From positions 1-41,289 of IMG/VR virus record IMGVR_UViG_3300046385_000071: DNA of 41,289 bases; one strand, written 5' to 3'. The position numbers and the translations under genes were made by a program. The notes under the pieces were generated by a model. That model saw only the letters and a program-made list of their open reading frames with translations, did no database searches and had not been told where the DNA came from. The first letter of the stretch is position 1, and each line of letters starts with the position of its first letter. Below are positions 36,076-41,289 of the stretch, piece after piece. The DNA is from a virus.

Positions 36076-36630
36076 ATGGACCAAAAAGTTGTAGTAAACC
36101 ATTGGCGTTATGAAGATGGTTGGAGTGATATTCCTTATGTACTGTTAAAGGATAAGAACAGTCTCACTCGCGAATTCCGTGAGGAAGTAGTTGGTTGGCA
36201 CTGCTGGGTATACTGCAACGATCACCACGAGTTCATTGCTTGGATGGAAGAGCATTGTCCTGGCGCAGACTGTACACCACGATTCAACTCAGGAGACCCA
36301 ATGATTACTGTGAGTATCAAAGATAAGGACGAGGCGGCATATTTTATGCTGAACTTTGGATGTATAATGCTTAACTATAACTTATACCTAGGTGACCGCA
36401 ACGAAACTGAGCTGTATGATTGGCTTTGCGAAAACATTGGTCCGTTGGGTCGCACAGCCAAAGCTGAGTGGAATTACTTTACACAGTATCACGGGGACAA
36501 TGACTTGTGGATCATGCACTCTGCTGATGTTTCTGACACATCTAGCCAGTATGACATTATCACTGTTATGAGCTTCAAGCACCGAGAAGATGCTGTAATG
36601 GCTAAACTACGCTTTGGTGGTTCGATGTAA
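36076..36630 (+). CDS. LRW-array protein 1, two fused units
   Basis: 184 aa. Two copies of the array domain in one chain: the first ends ISIKDKDEAAYFMLNFG-like (VSIKDKDEAAYFMLNFG), the second has WLCENIGPLGRT and ends FKHREDAVMAKLRFGGSM. The common pattern is W-x-x-E(N/H) followed by an aromatic strand pair and F-x-x-x-x-D-A-x-x-F-x-L-R-(W/F). First member of the tandem array. The stop overlaps the next ATG (TAATG). Confidence 0.75.
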   Translation: MDQKVVVNHWRYEDGWSDIPYVLLKDKNSLTREFREEVVGWHCWVYCNDHHEFIAWMEEHCPGADCTPRFNSGDPMITVSIKDKDEAAYFMLNFGCIMLNYNLYLGDRNETELYDWLCENIGPLGRTAKAEWNYFTQYHGDNDLWIMHSADVSDTSSQYDIITVMSFKHREDAVMAKLRFGGSM

Positions 36631-36872
36631 TGGCATGGCTTGAGCCAAAATACTCATTGAAAAAGAGTTGGGGGCATGTTGTGGCCCTTAAAGATCCATA
36701 TCAGGATCACAATGAGTTTGGCACTGTAGTGGACCTAGGTTCCGTTGATGCGATCCTAAAATGGGCCGAAGAAAACGCAAATGCCACCAGAATCAGCTAC
36801 GATACTTGGAAATTTAGGTCGCGTGATGACGCAGAACAGTTTATAATGCTGTATAAACTAACGTGGACCTAG
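36630..36872 (+). CDS. LRW-array protein 2
   Basis: 80 aa. It has ILKWAEENANATRISYDTWK and ends FRSRDDAEQFIMLYKLTWT. One complete unit of the array domain, with KLTWT in place of KLRWS. The next gene starts one base after its stop. Confidence 0.75.
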   Translation: MAWLEPKYSLKKSWGHVVALKDPYQDHNEFGTVVDLGSVDAILKWAEENANATRISYDTWKFRSRDDAEQFIMLYKLTWT

Positions 36873-36873
36873 T

Positions 36874-37314
36874 ATGAATGATCCTGATTTCTCTGCAATT
36901 GATCTTGAAACAATGACGGGCGCAAGCCTGCACGACTGTCAAAAGCAAACATTTGACACAATGTATGGTGGGTTCAAACGTGGACAACTGATGACATTTG
37001 ATTCGGGCCGTGGTACTGGTAAGAGTATGCTCGCTGCGAGCGCGTGGGCCGGGCCCACGCTCGAAATCGATTCGTTAGCTATGCTAACGCCACTGCCACC
37101 CTTTGAAGTTTTGTCCACTGCTGATGTTGATGGTGCGCCTTGGTACACTGTTTCCTGTCGCAAAGAAGTTCCCGTTTGGATTCGTGAAAACGGCGAAGAA
37201 GGTAAGGAATGGTACAGTCACATTCACATTGACAGCAAGTGGATGACTCACCGTAATGTGTTCGACATGTCGCAGGAAATGTTTGCCATGGTTAAATTAC
37301 GGTGGGGCACATGA
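36874..37314 (+). CDS. LRW-array protein 3 with an orphan P-loop
   Basis: 146 aa. The N-terminal part carries YGGFKRGQLMTFDSGRGTGK then SML, a Walker A motif (G45-x4-GK50-S51) as found at the start of phage ATPase domains, but no Walker B or the rest of an ATPase. The remaining part is an array unit ending FAMVKLRWGT. It is probably a chimera of a truncated ATPase start and an array unit; nucleotide binding is doubtful. Confidence 0.7.
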   Translation: MNDPDFSAIDLETMTGASLHDCQKQTFDTMYGGFKRGQLMTFDSGRGTGKSMLAASAWAGPTLEIDSLAMLTPLPPFEVLSTADVDGAPWYTVSCRKEVPVWIRENGEEGKEWYSHIHIDSKWMTHRNVFDMSQEMFAMVKLRWGT

Positions 37315-37505
37315 GAGTATTAAACAAACGCCACTGGCCGTATCAGTTTGCATTGCCTATCAAGGATATGCATGTTACTGATGATCGCATTATTTGGCTC
37401 AAGAACAACTTGTCCAAAGAAGCATGGCGATACAATGAAACCAATGCAACGTTTTGTTTCGTTGAAAAAGACGATGCAGTGTTGTTCAAGCTATCCTGTG
37501 CATGA
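37311..37505 (+). CDS. LRW-array protein 4
   Basis: 64 aa. It contains IIWLKNNLSKEAWRYNETNA and ends FCFVEKDDAVLFKLSCA. LSCA replaces LRWS, as LSCV does at 39498. ATG 37311 overlaps the previous stop; the bases coding LRWG (ttacggtggggc) supply the G-rich ribosome site. Confidence 0.75.
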   Translation: MRVLNKRHWPYQFALPIKDMHVTDDRIIWLKNNLSKEAWRYNETNATFCFVEKDDAVLFKLSCA

Positions 37506-37780
37506 GCTATAATGGCGCTGCACAATTTAACCCATCTCCGGGAAAAGCATATATGGAATACTCAATCATAACTGATGGGTGTGACTGCTATCCTTGGCAC
37601 GAAGTATATGCTTGGTGGCCAGTTAAAACAGTGTACGGTGAACGTGTATGGGGTGAACGAGTTTTTAAACGCAGGGTGTGGGTAGTGTGGGGCACAGGAT
37701 TCCACATGGAGCCGGAAACACAATACGCAACCATGTTTGATAGGTTGACACTTGATGATACTAAGCCGATTAAAAACTAA
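37502..37780 (+). CDS. LRW-array protein 5, diverged
   Basis: 92 aa. Trp- and Val-rich (YAWWPVKTVYGERVWGERVF, KRRVWVVWGTGF). The end ETQYATMFDRLTLDD is only a distant form of the array C-terminus. ATG overlaps the previous stop. Its end overlaps the next gene by 26 bases. Confidence 0.65.
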   Translation: MSYNGAAQFNPSPGKAYMEYSIITDGCDCYPWHEVYAWWPVKTVYGERVWGERVFKRRVWVVWGTGFHMEPETQYATMFDRLTLDDTKPIKN

Positions 37781-38198
37781 AGTCAGCACGGCTGCTCGTG
37801 CGTGGCAAGAAGAACGCTTTTTAAAGAAGCATCACTGTCGCAATCGTGCAGAGTACAATCGTAGATATGATCCAGATTATATTCCACGGGCATCACAGAT
37901 TGCAAACTACTACCATGGCTATAAGCATGTACATTGTTTTGAAAATCGCGAAAACTTTGTGTACAACAGAATTTACGATTACGGGCCCGGTGGATACAGA
38001 GATGGATTCCATGAGATATGCGACTGGTGCGAAGAGCACTTGAGTGGCAAATGGCGATACGATATGCTTCGTGTAATGCGGGCACCAAGCACTGGCAATC
38101 AATGGGAAGTAAATGAACTAGGCGGCGGCGATCACTGGTTCTTTGCATTTCAAGATAGCGAAGACTATTTTATGTTTAAACTGCAATGGGGACAATAA
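37755..38198 (+). CDS. LRW-array protein 6
   Basis: 147 aa. A basic N-terminal extension (RLKTKVSTAARAWQEERFLK, KKHHCRNRAEYNRRYD) is followed by an array unit with ICDWCEEHLSGKWRYDMLRV and the end FAFQDSEDYFMFKLQWGQ. ATG 37755 is chosen over the TTG one codon upstream. The stop overlaps the next ATG (TAATG). Confidence 0.75.
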   Translation: MILSRLKTKVSTAARAWQEERFLKKHHCRNRAEYNRRYDPDYIPRASQIANYYHGYKHVHCFENRENFVYNRIYDYGPGGYRDGFHEICDWCEEHLSGKWRYDMLRVMRAPSTGNQWEVNELGGGDHWFFAFQDSEDYFMFKLQWGQ

Positions 38199-38641
38199 TG
38201 AACACAGCTTACTTTACAGATGAAGAACTGATCAATCATGTTATCAAGTTCAGTGACGATCCAGAAAAAATTCGACTAGCAACTGCTATGGAACGTATGC
38301 GAGGTTCTACTTGGGATGATCTAGTCGATGTAGGCATGGATGAAACATACTGCACGTTTAACTCCGAATGGGGTTCAGAAATGCATGTTGGCCGCTACAT
38401 CTCTCACCTGCGTGAAGAAATTGATATGCGTGATGATGAACTTCGGCAACTGCGCGATGAAGTCGAAGAATTAAAGACAAGGTCTATCATTGACTTTATC
38501 CAGGAAGTCAAACAAGAGTTAAAAACGGCCGAGTACCGTGTTAAACAAGCACAAGATGCCCGCGATGAGGAACACAAGGCTCGTCGTAAAGCAGAACGTG
38601 AACTTGAAGTATGGGATGTATTGACCAACGGAAAGTCATGA
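38198..38641 (+). CDS. coiled-coil protein inside the array
   Basis: 147 aa. It does not carry the array C-terminus. The first 75 residues are acidic (FTDEELINHVIKFSDDPEKI), the rest is one long coiled coil (EEIDMRDDELRQLRDEVEEL; VKQAQDARDEEHKARRKAER). ATG 38198 is preferred over 38186, which would overlap more of the previous gene. It may be an inserted gene or a partner of the array proteins. Confidence 0.75.
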   Translation: MNTAYFTDEELINHVIKFSDDPEKIRLATAMERMRGSTWDDLVDVGMDETYCTFNSEWGSEMHVGRYISHLREEIDMRDDELRQLRDEVEELKTRSIIDFIQEVKQELKTAEYRVKQAQDARDEEHKARRKAERELEVWDVLTNGKS

Positions 38642-38826
38642 AAAAGAAAGAGTACGGAATAGCTATTGAGAATTGGCCCTGGAAGCATAAAGCAGAAGTA
38701 CGAATGTGGCTTGTTGAAAACTTTGGAGCTCATGGCGATCGTTGGTATGAAGAACCCGATTATGGTTTAGAAAACTTAGTCATGGACGAAGAAGTATATT
38801 TTATGTATAAGTTGAGGTGGTCATGA
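38638..38826 (+). CDS. LRW-array protein 7
   Basis: 62 aa, a minimal unit: VRMWLVENFGAHGDRWYEEP and the end VMDEEVYFMYKLRWS. The terminal codons ttg-agg-tgg-tca overlap the start of the next gene and form its ribosome site. ATG 38638 overlaps the coiled-coil gene stop. Confidence 0.75.
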   Translation: MKKKEYGIAIENWPWKHKAEVRMWLVENFGAHGDRWYEEPDYGLENLVMDEEVYFMYKLRWS

Positions 38827-39071
38827 TTAGAATGGATCTAACTAACAATGATCCATTTCTGTTGAGTAATACTCTGTGGGATAACTTTTCTCGTAATATT
38901 GCTAACCAACACAGAAGCATAACTGTAGATATGGTAAACGAAGCACTAGTTGAATACAACGCAACTTATCATTATAAGGAGATTGGCAACTTATTTGAAA
39001 GCAGTTATCAAGAGTGGATTGATTTTAAAAACAATGATGATTACATTATGTTTAAGTTGAGGTGGGCATGA
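38823..39071 (+). CDS. LRW-array protein 8
   Basis: 82 aa. Starts MIRMDLTNNDPFLLSNTLWD and ends FKNNDDYIMFKLRWA. ATG 38823 lies within the tgaggtggtcatga junction; the in-frame GTG two codons upstream lies inside the ribosome site and is rejected. Confidence 0.75.
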   Translation: MIRMDLTNNDPFLLSNTLWDNFSRNIANQHRSITVDMVNEALVEYNATYHYKEIGNLFESSYQEWIDFKNNDDYIMFKLRWA

Positions 39072-39247
39072 CTACAGTAACAATAACATGTCCTATAACA
39101 TGGTGGGAACGATGCCAATGGATATATAAAAATTGCACTGAGCCTGTAGATAGAACAAACTGGGGAATGTGGCAAATAGGGCAAGATGATATCTACTTTG
39201 AGGTAGAAGATCAAGATGCATTTATGTTTAAGTTGAGGTGGGCATGA
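39068..39247 (+). CDS. LRW-array protein 9
   Basis: 59 aa, the shortest complete member: TCPITWWERCQWIYKNCTEP and the end FEVEDQDAFMFKLRWA. Its last 28 bases including the following start are identical to the end of protein 8, evidence for recent duplication or conversion. Confidence 0.75.
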   Translation: MTTVTITCPITWWERCQWIYKNCTEPVDRTNWGMWQIGQDDIYFEVEDQDAFMFKLRWA

Positions 39248-39498
39248 CTGTATATTATAAAACCAATGAAGCATGGCCTGGTATTAACTTTCCTGTATTG
39301 CACAGAGTTGTTTATGCTAAAACTGTAGACGGGGTGATGGCCATGTACCAACGCAGTTATAAAGATTACTTAGTAGATGCATGGCTAGAAACAAACTGCC
39401 AGCATCCTTATTACCACAGCCCCGGCTACCTTAGAGAAAAGTTTATTGAGTTTGAATGTGATGAAGATGCTGCCATGTTTGCATTATCGTGTGTATGA
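39244..39498 (+). CDS. LRW-array protein 10
   Basis: 84 aa. Contains WLETNCQHPYYHSPGYLREK and ends FECDEDAAMFALSCV, the LSC variant. Its start uses the tgaggtgggcatga junction. Confidence 0.75.
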   Translation: MTVYYKTNEAWPGINFPVLHRVVYAKTVDGVMAMYQRSYKDYLVDAWLETNCQHPYYHSPGYLREKFIEFECDEDAAMFALSCV

Positions 39499-39713
39499 AT
39501 ATACAATTTAAACATCGCCCAGGACGATACTATGAGTGGGAATGGTACTACAGTCCACAGGGTCTTGAAATGGGTGAAGTCTACGGCTGGTGCAGGGAAA
39601 CATTTGGGCACCCTGGCTTGGCATTAGGTGATGGGTCCTGGGACTGCCACAGCGGCTGGATCAAATTCTGTAAGCAGGAAGATATGCTGTTGTTTGTGTT
39701 GAGGTGGTCATGA
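39495..39713 (+). CDS. LRW-array protein 11
   Basis: 72 aa. VYGWCRETFGHPGLALGDGS shows the W-C-x-E-x-F-G core also seen in proteins 1 and 7; the end is FCKQEDMLLFVLRWS. ATG overlaps the previous stop. Its terminal codons again make the gaggtgg ribosome site of the next gene. Confidence 0.75.
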   Translation: MNIQFKHRPGRYYEWEWYYSPQGLEMGEVYGWCRETFGHPGLALGDGSWDCHSGWIKFCKQEDMLLFVLRWS

Positions 39714-39931
39714 ACGTATTTCGTAAAAAACATAAAGTACTTGCAGAGGAATACAGTTCTAGAATCATTGATGCAATGCTTAGTAGCGGTCACGGCGTAT
39801 ACCGCAACAGTTTTTGGCAGTTCGTTAAACAAGAATACAATGGTGACCAAGAGTTTAGATGGCGCAAAGAAAAGAACTACATTGTGTTCAATGATGAAAA
39901 AGACTACATGATGTTTTTATTAAGGATGTGA
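39710..39931 (+). CDS. LRW-array protein 12
   Basis: 73 aa, ending FNDEKDYMMFLLRM. The reading frame reaches the shared junction in a different phase: the tga of tgaggtggtcatga is its stop codon, so the LRW codons are lost but the ribosome site for the next gene is kept. Confidence 0.75.
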   Translation: MNVFRKKHKVLAEEYSSRIIDAMLSSGHGVYRNSFWQFVKQEYNGDQEFRWRKEKNYIVFNDEKDYMMFLLRM

Positions 39932-39938
39932 GGTGGTC

Positions 39939-40295
39939 ATGAGTCGATTAGAAATAAAAAAGCTGTATACTTTGCCCAATGGGATTCATCTGCCGTGTGG
40001 GTTAAACTTTAGGGAAAAACTTTGGTGGCGTTTCATGCCCGGCGTTGTTATCAATGTGAAGTGGCCCAATGGTTGGGTAGTATTACACGAAGCACCAGAT
40101 GGGTCAAAAGTTTCAGCTGAATCAGCTGATCCAAACGATCACTATAGGCCAGAACTTGAAAAAGAGATTGGAAAACAAGGGATCCATTGGAATTGGGGCG
40201 TAGCTAACAATGGCGTTGCAGAAAATAGACTGACAATAAAAGTCCTTCGTAAATTCAAAGCCGAAGCAGCCTATTTTGCTTTAAAATGGAGCTAA
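39939..40295 (+). CDS. LRW-array protein 13, last plus-strand member
   Basis: 118 aa. The N-terminal part has GLNFREKLWWRFMPGVVINV and a beta-rich stretch WPNGWVVLHEAPDGSKV; the end is KFKAEAAYFALKWS. ATG 39939 uses the gaggtgg site; the upstream GTG reading is rejected for that reason. Its 3-prime end overlaps a small minus-strand reading frame. Confidence 0.75.
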   Translation: MSRLEIKKLYTLPNGIHLPCGLNFREKLWWRFMPGVVINVKWPNGWVVLHEAPDGSKVSAESADPNDHYRPELEKEIGKQGIHWNWGVANNGVAENRLTIKVLRKFKAEAAYFALKWS

Positions 40296-40414: not shown

Positions 40415-40570
40415 CTACCTCAAAGAAAACCACACAGCATCTCGTTCTCGAGCAAAACAGAATCTACACTGATCAATGTGTCCTTTGCCTGCACAAAATA
40501 CCGTCCATACGCTAGATCTATTGCCTATAGCTTCCCATCGTGGACTGTGTTGTTCTTCACACCATCGCAT
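40415..40570 (-). CDS. minus-strand LRW-family member, 51 aa
   Basis: ATG at 40570 (minus), stop TAG at 40415. It begins MRWCEEQHSPRWEAIGNRSS and ends QCRFCFARERDAVWFSLR. The end matches the array pattern F-x-x-x-x-D-A-x-x-F-x-L-R closely, compare FKHREDAVMAKLRF. The codons ttg-agg-tag show the same junction with the Trp codon TGG changed to TAG. It is convergent with the plus-strand array. Confidence 0.55.
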   Translation of the reverse strand: MRWCEEQHSPRWEAIGNRSSVWTVFCAGKGHIDQCRFCFARERDAVWFSLR

Positions 40571-40737: not shown

Positions 40738-41289
40738 ATGAGTAACCCAACAATTCCGGAGTCTGGACCGATTCCGTTTTCGAGTATTAATTTAGCTCTG
40801 GGACGAGACAGTACTGCTACTATTAGTCTTGGCGAGGAAGAAGTTCGCAACGTGTTTGAAGATGCTGAAGGCAGTATTTCAGTTTCCCAAGGCCGCGGCA
40901 AACGCAAGAATACTGCCCCTGCTGTATTTGCAGCCACTATCGGCGCCAATCAGCAGAATTTAGATCTGGCCACGTGGGCAGTTGACAACGGCTGGGATGG
41001 TATTAGTGCAGTAACTATTACCATCGCACCGGGTGTTTACATTTGGTCAGACGATGTCAATACCCCAGCACTTAACGTAGGCAGCTTTCCAGGTGAGTTT
41101 GCTGCTGGTGTGCAACTGATCAACAACGGCTATATCATTGGTCGTGGCGGCAACGGCGGTGGCGGTGGTACCGGCGGCGCCGGTGGTTCTGCTCTCTATG
41201 CAGGTGATAGTTGTGTGATTACTAATAACAGCTTTATTGCCGGTGGTGGTGGTGGTGGTGGTGGCTTGGCCAACGGCAAGCTGGCGTAC
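40738..41289 (+). CDS. Gly-rich fibre adhesin, 3-prime end outside the window
   Basis: 184 codons seen, no stop before the window ends. It begins MSNPTIPESGPIPFSSINLA, with INLALGRDSTATISLGEEEV typical of the N-termini of phage fibre-tip proteins. GRGKRKNTAPAVFAATIGAN leads to a beta region, then Gly-rich runs (RGGNGGGGGTGGAGGSALYA; IAGGGGGGGGLANG). Stacked Gly-rich helices (polyglycine II) form the receptor-binding tip of T4-type distal fibres such as S16 gp38. The Gly runs alternate with short strands, as in that fold. Likely host-range determinant. Confidence 0.8.
   Translation, partial: MSNPTIPESGPIPFSSINLALGRDSTATISLGEEEVRNVFEDAEGSISVSQGRGKRKNTAPAVFAATIGANQQNLDLATWAVDNGWDGISAVTITIAPGVYIWSDDVNTPALNVGSFPGEFAAGVQLINNGYIIGRGGNGGGGGTGGAGGSALYAGDSCVITNNSFIAGGGGGGGGLANGKLAY

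Follow-up and report, generated by a model that had tools for sequence, protein, structure and literature searches.

We propose that the junctions of an array of small genes in the window (the whole 41,289-base IMG/VR virus record analysed here) are dual-coding. Very probably, one short segment encodes the end of a protein helix and also forms the ribosome site of the next gene, with exchange of gene blocks as a consequence. In the protein layer, F-x-L-R-W would close the final helix in the fold of a small-protein family. In the RNA layer, at ATGA or TAATG, the codons would be held as NTG-AGG-TGG-NNA-TGA and would thereby supply GAGGTG, the six-base complement of the 16S rRNA 3′ end. A ribosome ending at ...GAGGTGGNCATGA would pair with GAGGTG and reinitiate, presumably efficiently, on the overlapping ATG; being held and reinitiating in this way, it would most likely translate the array members in linked fashion. 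Because each tail can carry the next ribosome site, genes could be inserted, lost or joined there with translation retained, and such easy insertion may have aided expansion of the family. The similarity of the tails could itself serve as a crossover site.

A scan of the window gave four exact copies of TTGAGGTGG[TG]CATGA, starting at 38812, 39057, 39233 and 39699. The initial annotation had read the LRW(S/A)-stop codons as a ribosome site with an overlapping ATG, and all four copies bear this out; its count of five copies, one of them out of phase, also stands, but its start was off by one (38812). The junctions are as follows:

38812..38826, + strand, junction 1: TTG AGG TGG TCA TGA = LRWS-stop, overlapping ATG at 38823, GAGGTG Shine–Dalgarno match
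39057..39071, + strand, junction 2: TTG AGG TGG GCA TGA = LRWA-stop, next ATG at 39068
39233..39247, + strand, junction 3: TTG AGG TGG GCA TGA = LRWA-stop, next ATG at 39244
39699..39713, + strand, junction 4: TTG AGG TGG TCA TGA = LRWS-stop, next ATG at 39710
39928..39942, + strand, out-of-phase copy: GTGAGGTGGTCATGA, after the gene ending in LRM-stop

The genes of the array and an inverted copy beyond it are:

36076..38198, + strand, upstream part of the array, ORF ends at 36630, 36872, 37314, 37505, 37780 and 38198
38638..38826, + strand, family gene, 62 aa, ends VYFMYKLRWS
38823..39071, + strand, family gene, 82 aa, ends YIMFKLRWA
39068..39247, + strand, family gene, 59 aa, ends AFMFKLRWA
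39244..39498, + strand, family gene, 84 aa, ends AAMFALSCV
39495..39713, + strand, family gene, 72 aa, ends LLFVLRWS; predicted structure, pLDDT 83.5
39710..39931, + strand, family gene, 73 aa, ends MMFLLRM
39939..40295, + strand, family gene, 118 aa, ends AYFALKWS
40415..40570, − strand, inverted family copy, ends FARERDAVWFSLR-stop; TTG AGG TAG, with TAG replacing TGG

The core GAGGTGGNCATGA, with 12 specified bases, is seen five times against about 0.005 expected in 41 kb on both strands. All five copies fall inside 1.13 kb, and a search of the window for further junction-like sites with fewer than three mismatches found none beyond them. At four window junctions, as for 195 family genes in the sampled loci, the start lies on the upstream stop (−4 or −1), and the 3′ end of the upstream gene holds a Shine–Dalgarno motif, the 6-nt GAGGTG, at functional spacing; from the AGG codon to the ATG there are 5 nt for ATGA and 8 nt for TAATG. 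The site is present at 5 of the 12 array junctions scored in the window, and the LSC junctions (ctatcctgtgcATGA, ttatcgtgtgtATGA) and LTW are without a strong Shine–Dalgarno match. Since the overlap is mostly retained at the seven junctions that lack a strong site, the site is not essential. Array ORFs mostly end in F/L-x-L-x-W/F/C; those of the upstream part (36076..38198) mostly have such ends too, in other codons and with a weak Shine–Dalgarno match or none. The L019 orthologue of the gene at 39244..39498 ends in ALRWA with TTGAGGTGG still there. The inverted copy at 40415-40570 has a further in-frame stop upstream and may therefore be a remnant. No Rfam family matched within the array, where promoter-like and terminator-like sites were not clearly in excess of shuffles.

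A search of other phages for the junction, which the initial annotation had suggested, was fruitful: a 21-base junction pattern was found in 30 virus contigs, nearly all of which hold more small ORFs with like ends. The same pattern occurs in no contig of 257 Gb of cellular genomes, and hence gives no host or prophage link. With two added scans in which the Leu and Arg codons were left free (pattern ATGTTYAARYTNMGNTGGNNNTGA/TAA), the final set comprised 86 sequences, in which the tail could be read for about 290 distinct members. Their C-terminal motif is FxF..E.DAxxFxL[RKT]W, within a full-length consensus of ...[VI]x[IVL]...W[CL]xEx[FY]G....W.....FxFxxEEDAxMFxLRWx. The tail is the best conserved segment of the family proteins, with the F and L of the motif near invariant among members that were partly chosen by that motif. 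A family profile matches all of the 14 records tested: the window has 11 matches, contigs of 154, 417 and 608 kb have 46, 77 and 52 respectively, and phage Phosso has 50. In the contig with 77 matches (L027 / L060, 416,714 bases), most of the tails seen read FKLTW and there is little overlap, in contrast to the LRW arrays.

The paralogues are divergent, at 16–34% identity to one array member. A search for relatives with one array member confirmed none, probably because members diverge too fast, and none of 50,697 phage records matched the array by BLASTN. Among 88 profiled members there were no Pfam and no NCBIfam matches, one PHROG match (E 0.005, one member) and one PADLOC match (E 0.009, one member); per-protein PHROG and Pfam scans of the array returned chance-level matches only, and a PDB sequence search with family members nothing convincing. 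A description of the motif was not found in the literature, in which subscription journals were thinly covered. This is apparently an undescribed, large family of small proteins of big phages, present in dozens of copies per large phage and named in no library searched here.

AlphaFold2 models give some shape to the protein layer. The window member at 39495..39713 is predicted as strand-strand-helix-strand-strand-helix (pLDDT 83.5) and a member from locus L018 as strand-helix-strand-strand-helix (pLDDT 84.0). The predicted core pattern is a strand, a helix with W[CL]xE, two strands and a helix with ..E.DAxxFxLRW, so that LRW ends the last helix in the models. A Foldseek search of solved structures gave no significant match (best E 1.2); the viral structures matched belong to uncharacterised proteins from uncultured phages and, at a weak level, from Agrobacterium phage Atu_ph07. 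An eIF1/SUI1-like fold, raised by a VIA Z of about 5 (6.5 for mL49) for one model only, was not significant and was not repeated by the second model, whose best rows are unrelated folds with Z of at most 5.3. The variable N-terminal halves, copy number and accessory context suggest, with low confidence, that the members are small host-interaction or counter-defence proteins.

The evidence for the RNA layer comes from comparing tails with and without an overlapping start. In the environmental set, and excluding matches fixed by the AGG search pattern, the tail Arg is AGG in 139 of 200 cases, against 105 of 1145 (9%) in the bodies of the same genes; stratified by locus, 140 are observed where 19 are expected. 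AGG is found in 129/159 tails where the next start overlaps, 5/20 where it lies just after the stop and 6/22 where there is none (overlap versus no start, Fisher 7e-7). With one gene per homology cluster, the counts are about 75/100 coupled versus about 4.5/25 uncoupled. Of 187 family overlap junctions, 48.7% have a Shine–Dalgarno match of at least 6 nt; the figure is 2.6% (maximum 7.5%) after synonymous redraw of the tail codons and 5.2% for the 404 overlap junctions outside the family in the same loci. These matches are scored against an anti-Shine–Dalgarno complement that may not be the host's.

The comparison of synonymous change in junctions and bodies that the initial annotation had called for agrees with this. 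In orthologue pairs that both overlap, the tail Arg codon is identical in 54/62 (87%), versus 88/185 (48%) for body Arg codons of overlapping pairs and 11/31 (35%) for the tails of non-overlapping pairs, the pairs not all being independent. These comparisons support a DNA-level codon constraint that would serve the ribosome site of the next gene, and only where the start overlaps the stop. Arg itself is commoner in coupled tails (138/174) than in uncoupled ones (13/33), a difference partly confounded by lineage (LTW in L027); the RNA layer may thus influence the choice of amino acid as well, making the two layers less clearly separable.

The copy at 39928 bears on how such junctions arise. The gene at 39710-39931 ends ...FLLRM-stop (TTA AGG ATG TGA); the TGA of the copy is that stop, LRW is not encoded, and the ATG at 39939 follows the LRM-stop by 7 nt with no overlap. 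The L012 orthologue of this gene (78% identical) has the same end, TTAAGGATGTGA, followed by CAACGATGG. Ten relatives of the gene at 39939, several of them closely related to each other, were traced to their start, and 8 of the 10 lie directly after an LRW tail, seven with TTGAGGTGG and L070 with TTGCGGTGG; of the other two, the L052 gene comes after TTGAGGTGGTCATA, and the L043 gene after TTGAGATGGCAATGA plus a short spacer. With the same LRM-stop before other DNA in L012, and LRW before the relatives of gene 39939, the copy looks like a recombination scar. The simplest reading of it would be a join at shared TGA/GAGG letters, by which gene 39939 kept the last bases of what had been an LRWS tail. 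An alternative origin, in which 8 bp were inserted into an LRWS tail, was considered and rejected, as L012 has the same LRM-stop and the following ribosome site is absent. The initial annotation had taken this copy as proof that the DNA itself is kept. It rightly described another phase in which LRW is lost and the ribosome site retained, but the copy gives no independent proof of selection; it illustrates the block idea.

Breakpoints elsewhere also fall in tails. The L009 junction consists of the left part of one L022 tail and the sequence that follows another L022 tail 2 kb apart, placing the crossover inside the tail, with 2 kb removed or added. L043 has a 397-bp gene that seven relatives lack, with both of its ends at ATGA. 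Of about 15 distinct clean indels, five break in the tail window, which makes up 1.65% of the aligned bases (binomial 3e-6, for events merged by hand and with gene ends generally favoured). As expected of boundary sequences, a short similar sequence is found at several gene ends and crossovers lie inside it, in few independent events. Only five close paralogue pairs lie within one locus, so the arrays are not mainly recent tandem duplications. The proposal that each gene is a self-contained block that can be duplicated or inserted in tandem is thus upheld in that indels break at tails, but the arrays did not grow chiefly by fresh tandem duplication.

Could the tail DNA be chiefly a recombination (boundary) site for block exchange, with ribosome binding secondary? 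The indels in tails, the L009/L022 crossover and the scar at 39928 fit such a role. A recombination site should stay without a start, yet the uncoupled Arg codons are free (11/31 identical); the conserved bases and their spacing match the anti-Shine–Dalgarno complement, and many other indels also lie near gene starts or stops. We consider this explanation unlikely.

A second alternative is that translation coupling alone preserves the motif and LRW has no protein role; the initial annotation had favoured coupling over the protein in this sense. The strong codon constraint at overlapping starts and the out-of-phase copy at 39928 are compatible with it. What tells against it is a real family with a predicted fold, a near-invariant F codon that lies outside any Shine–Dalgarno pairing, and F-x-L-[RKT]-W with its upstream E.DA helix, which uncoupled genes retain while their codons vary. 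The cultured Sinorhizobium phage Phosso (PV764938.1, 469-kb) has about 40 members with the ending DAMLFKL[RTA][WF] or a similar one, and there the Arg codons of the uncoupled tails are CGC in 5, CGT in 2, CGG in 1 and AGG in 1; the amino acids therefore persist without the ribosome site. FxLxW/F ends are thus kept in Phosso and in uncoupled genes with free synonymous codons. As the uncoupled members were found via the motif, they indicate that coupling is not needed for it to persist, but say nothing on how frequently it disappears. Conservation for coupling only is already largely refuted, and we hold it to be very improbable. The Phosso copies, some 40–50 in number, are scattered (e.g. 3,189, 96,707, 369,763), are hypothetical proteins in the stretch viewed, and offer a laboratory route to function.

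The least probable explanation, a purely protein feature whose shared DNA reflects recent paralogue descent or codon bias, draws on the homology of all members and the tail being their best conserved protein segment, but it is refuted, barring a sampling artefact, by the coupled/uncoupled contrast, AGG being rare (9%) in the same genes' bodies and its excess largely gone without an overlapping start, the paralogues being divergent (16–34%) and synonymous redraw failing to reproduce the site.

The dual-coding reading, in which block exchange follows from the tails, can be extended: a self-propagating tail module, ribosome site plus crossover sequence, might have driven expansion of the family more than protein function alone. 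We regard this as doubtful, though conceivable; if true, any gene with such a tail would be pre-adapted for splicing into arrays. The junctions offer a quantifiable case of one short segment selected as protein and as ribosome site, with a built-in control in that such tails occur both with an overlapping start and without one, and they tie translation coupling to modular phage evolution.

Stop/start overlaps with an intragenic Shine–Dalgarno motif are common. In E. coli overlapping pairs, removal of the Shine–Dalgarno motif substantially cut reinitiation in four of five tested (Huber et al. 2019, PMC6728339). Those ATGA/TGATG termination–reinitiation pairs resemble the present junctions in their stop/start overlap and in the intragenic motif at the upstream gene end, but here one recurring protein motif encodes the site along arrays of paralogues. 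The family site is also far stronger than that of other overlaps in these phages. The lambdoid nin region is likewise an interlinked chain of small genes with ATGA overlaps and proposed boundary sequences, exchanged as modules; the nin genes are not known to form a single paralogous family that shares a C-terminal motif. In mycobacteriophage Island3, neighbouring genes 67 and 68 have a 60-bp 3′ end in common, with similar C-terminal codons, and gene gain or loss occurs by recombination between the shared ends (PMC3029335); that is a single case in two phages, whereas the tail described here is family-wide, occurs in many contigs and carries the next ribosome site. Bacillus phage G, a jumbo phage, has a comparably large lineage-specific expansion, with about 35 copies of a small zinc-ribbon protein; that family is unrelated, and the passage on it reports no dual-coding junction (PMC7824862). 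The apparently new element is a single protein motif that provides the site over and over in a large family, its codons being constrained only where the next start overlaps.

Other features of the window concern its surroundings. It also encodes an endolysin, a radical-SAM protein and a UDP-glucose dehydrogenase, a content that fits a piece of a larger phage. Within the upstream part of the array, the ORF at 37502-37780 has no family tail, ends TMFDRLTLDDTKPIKN and overruns an uncertain next-gene start near 37752; a frameshift or a lost tail is possible. The end of the window (41150-41289) is Gly-rich and repeat-like (GGCGGTGGCGGTGG...), as is typical of a structural or fibre-like protein.
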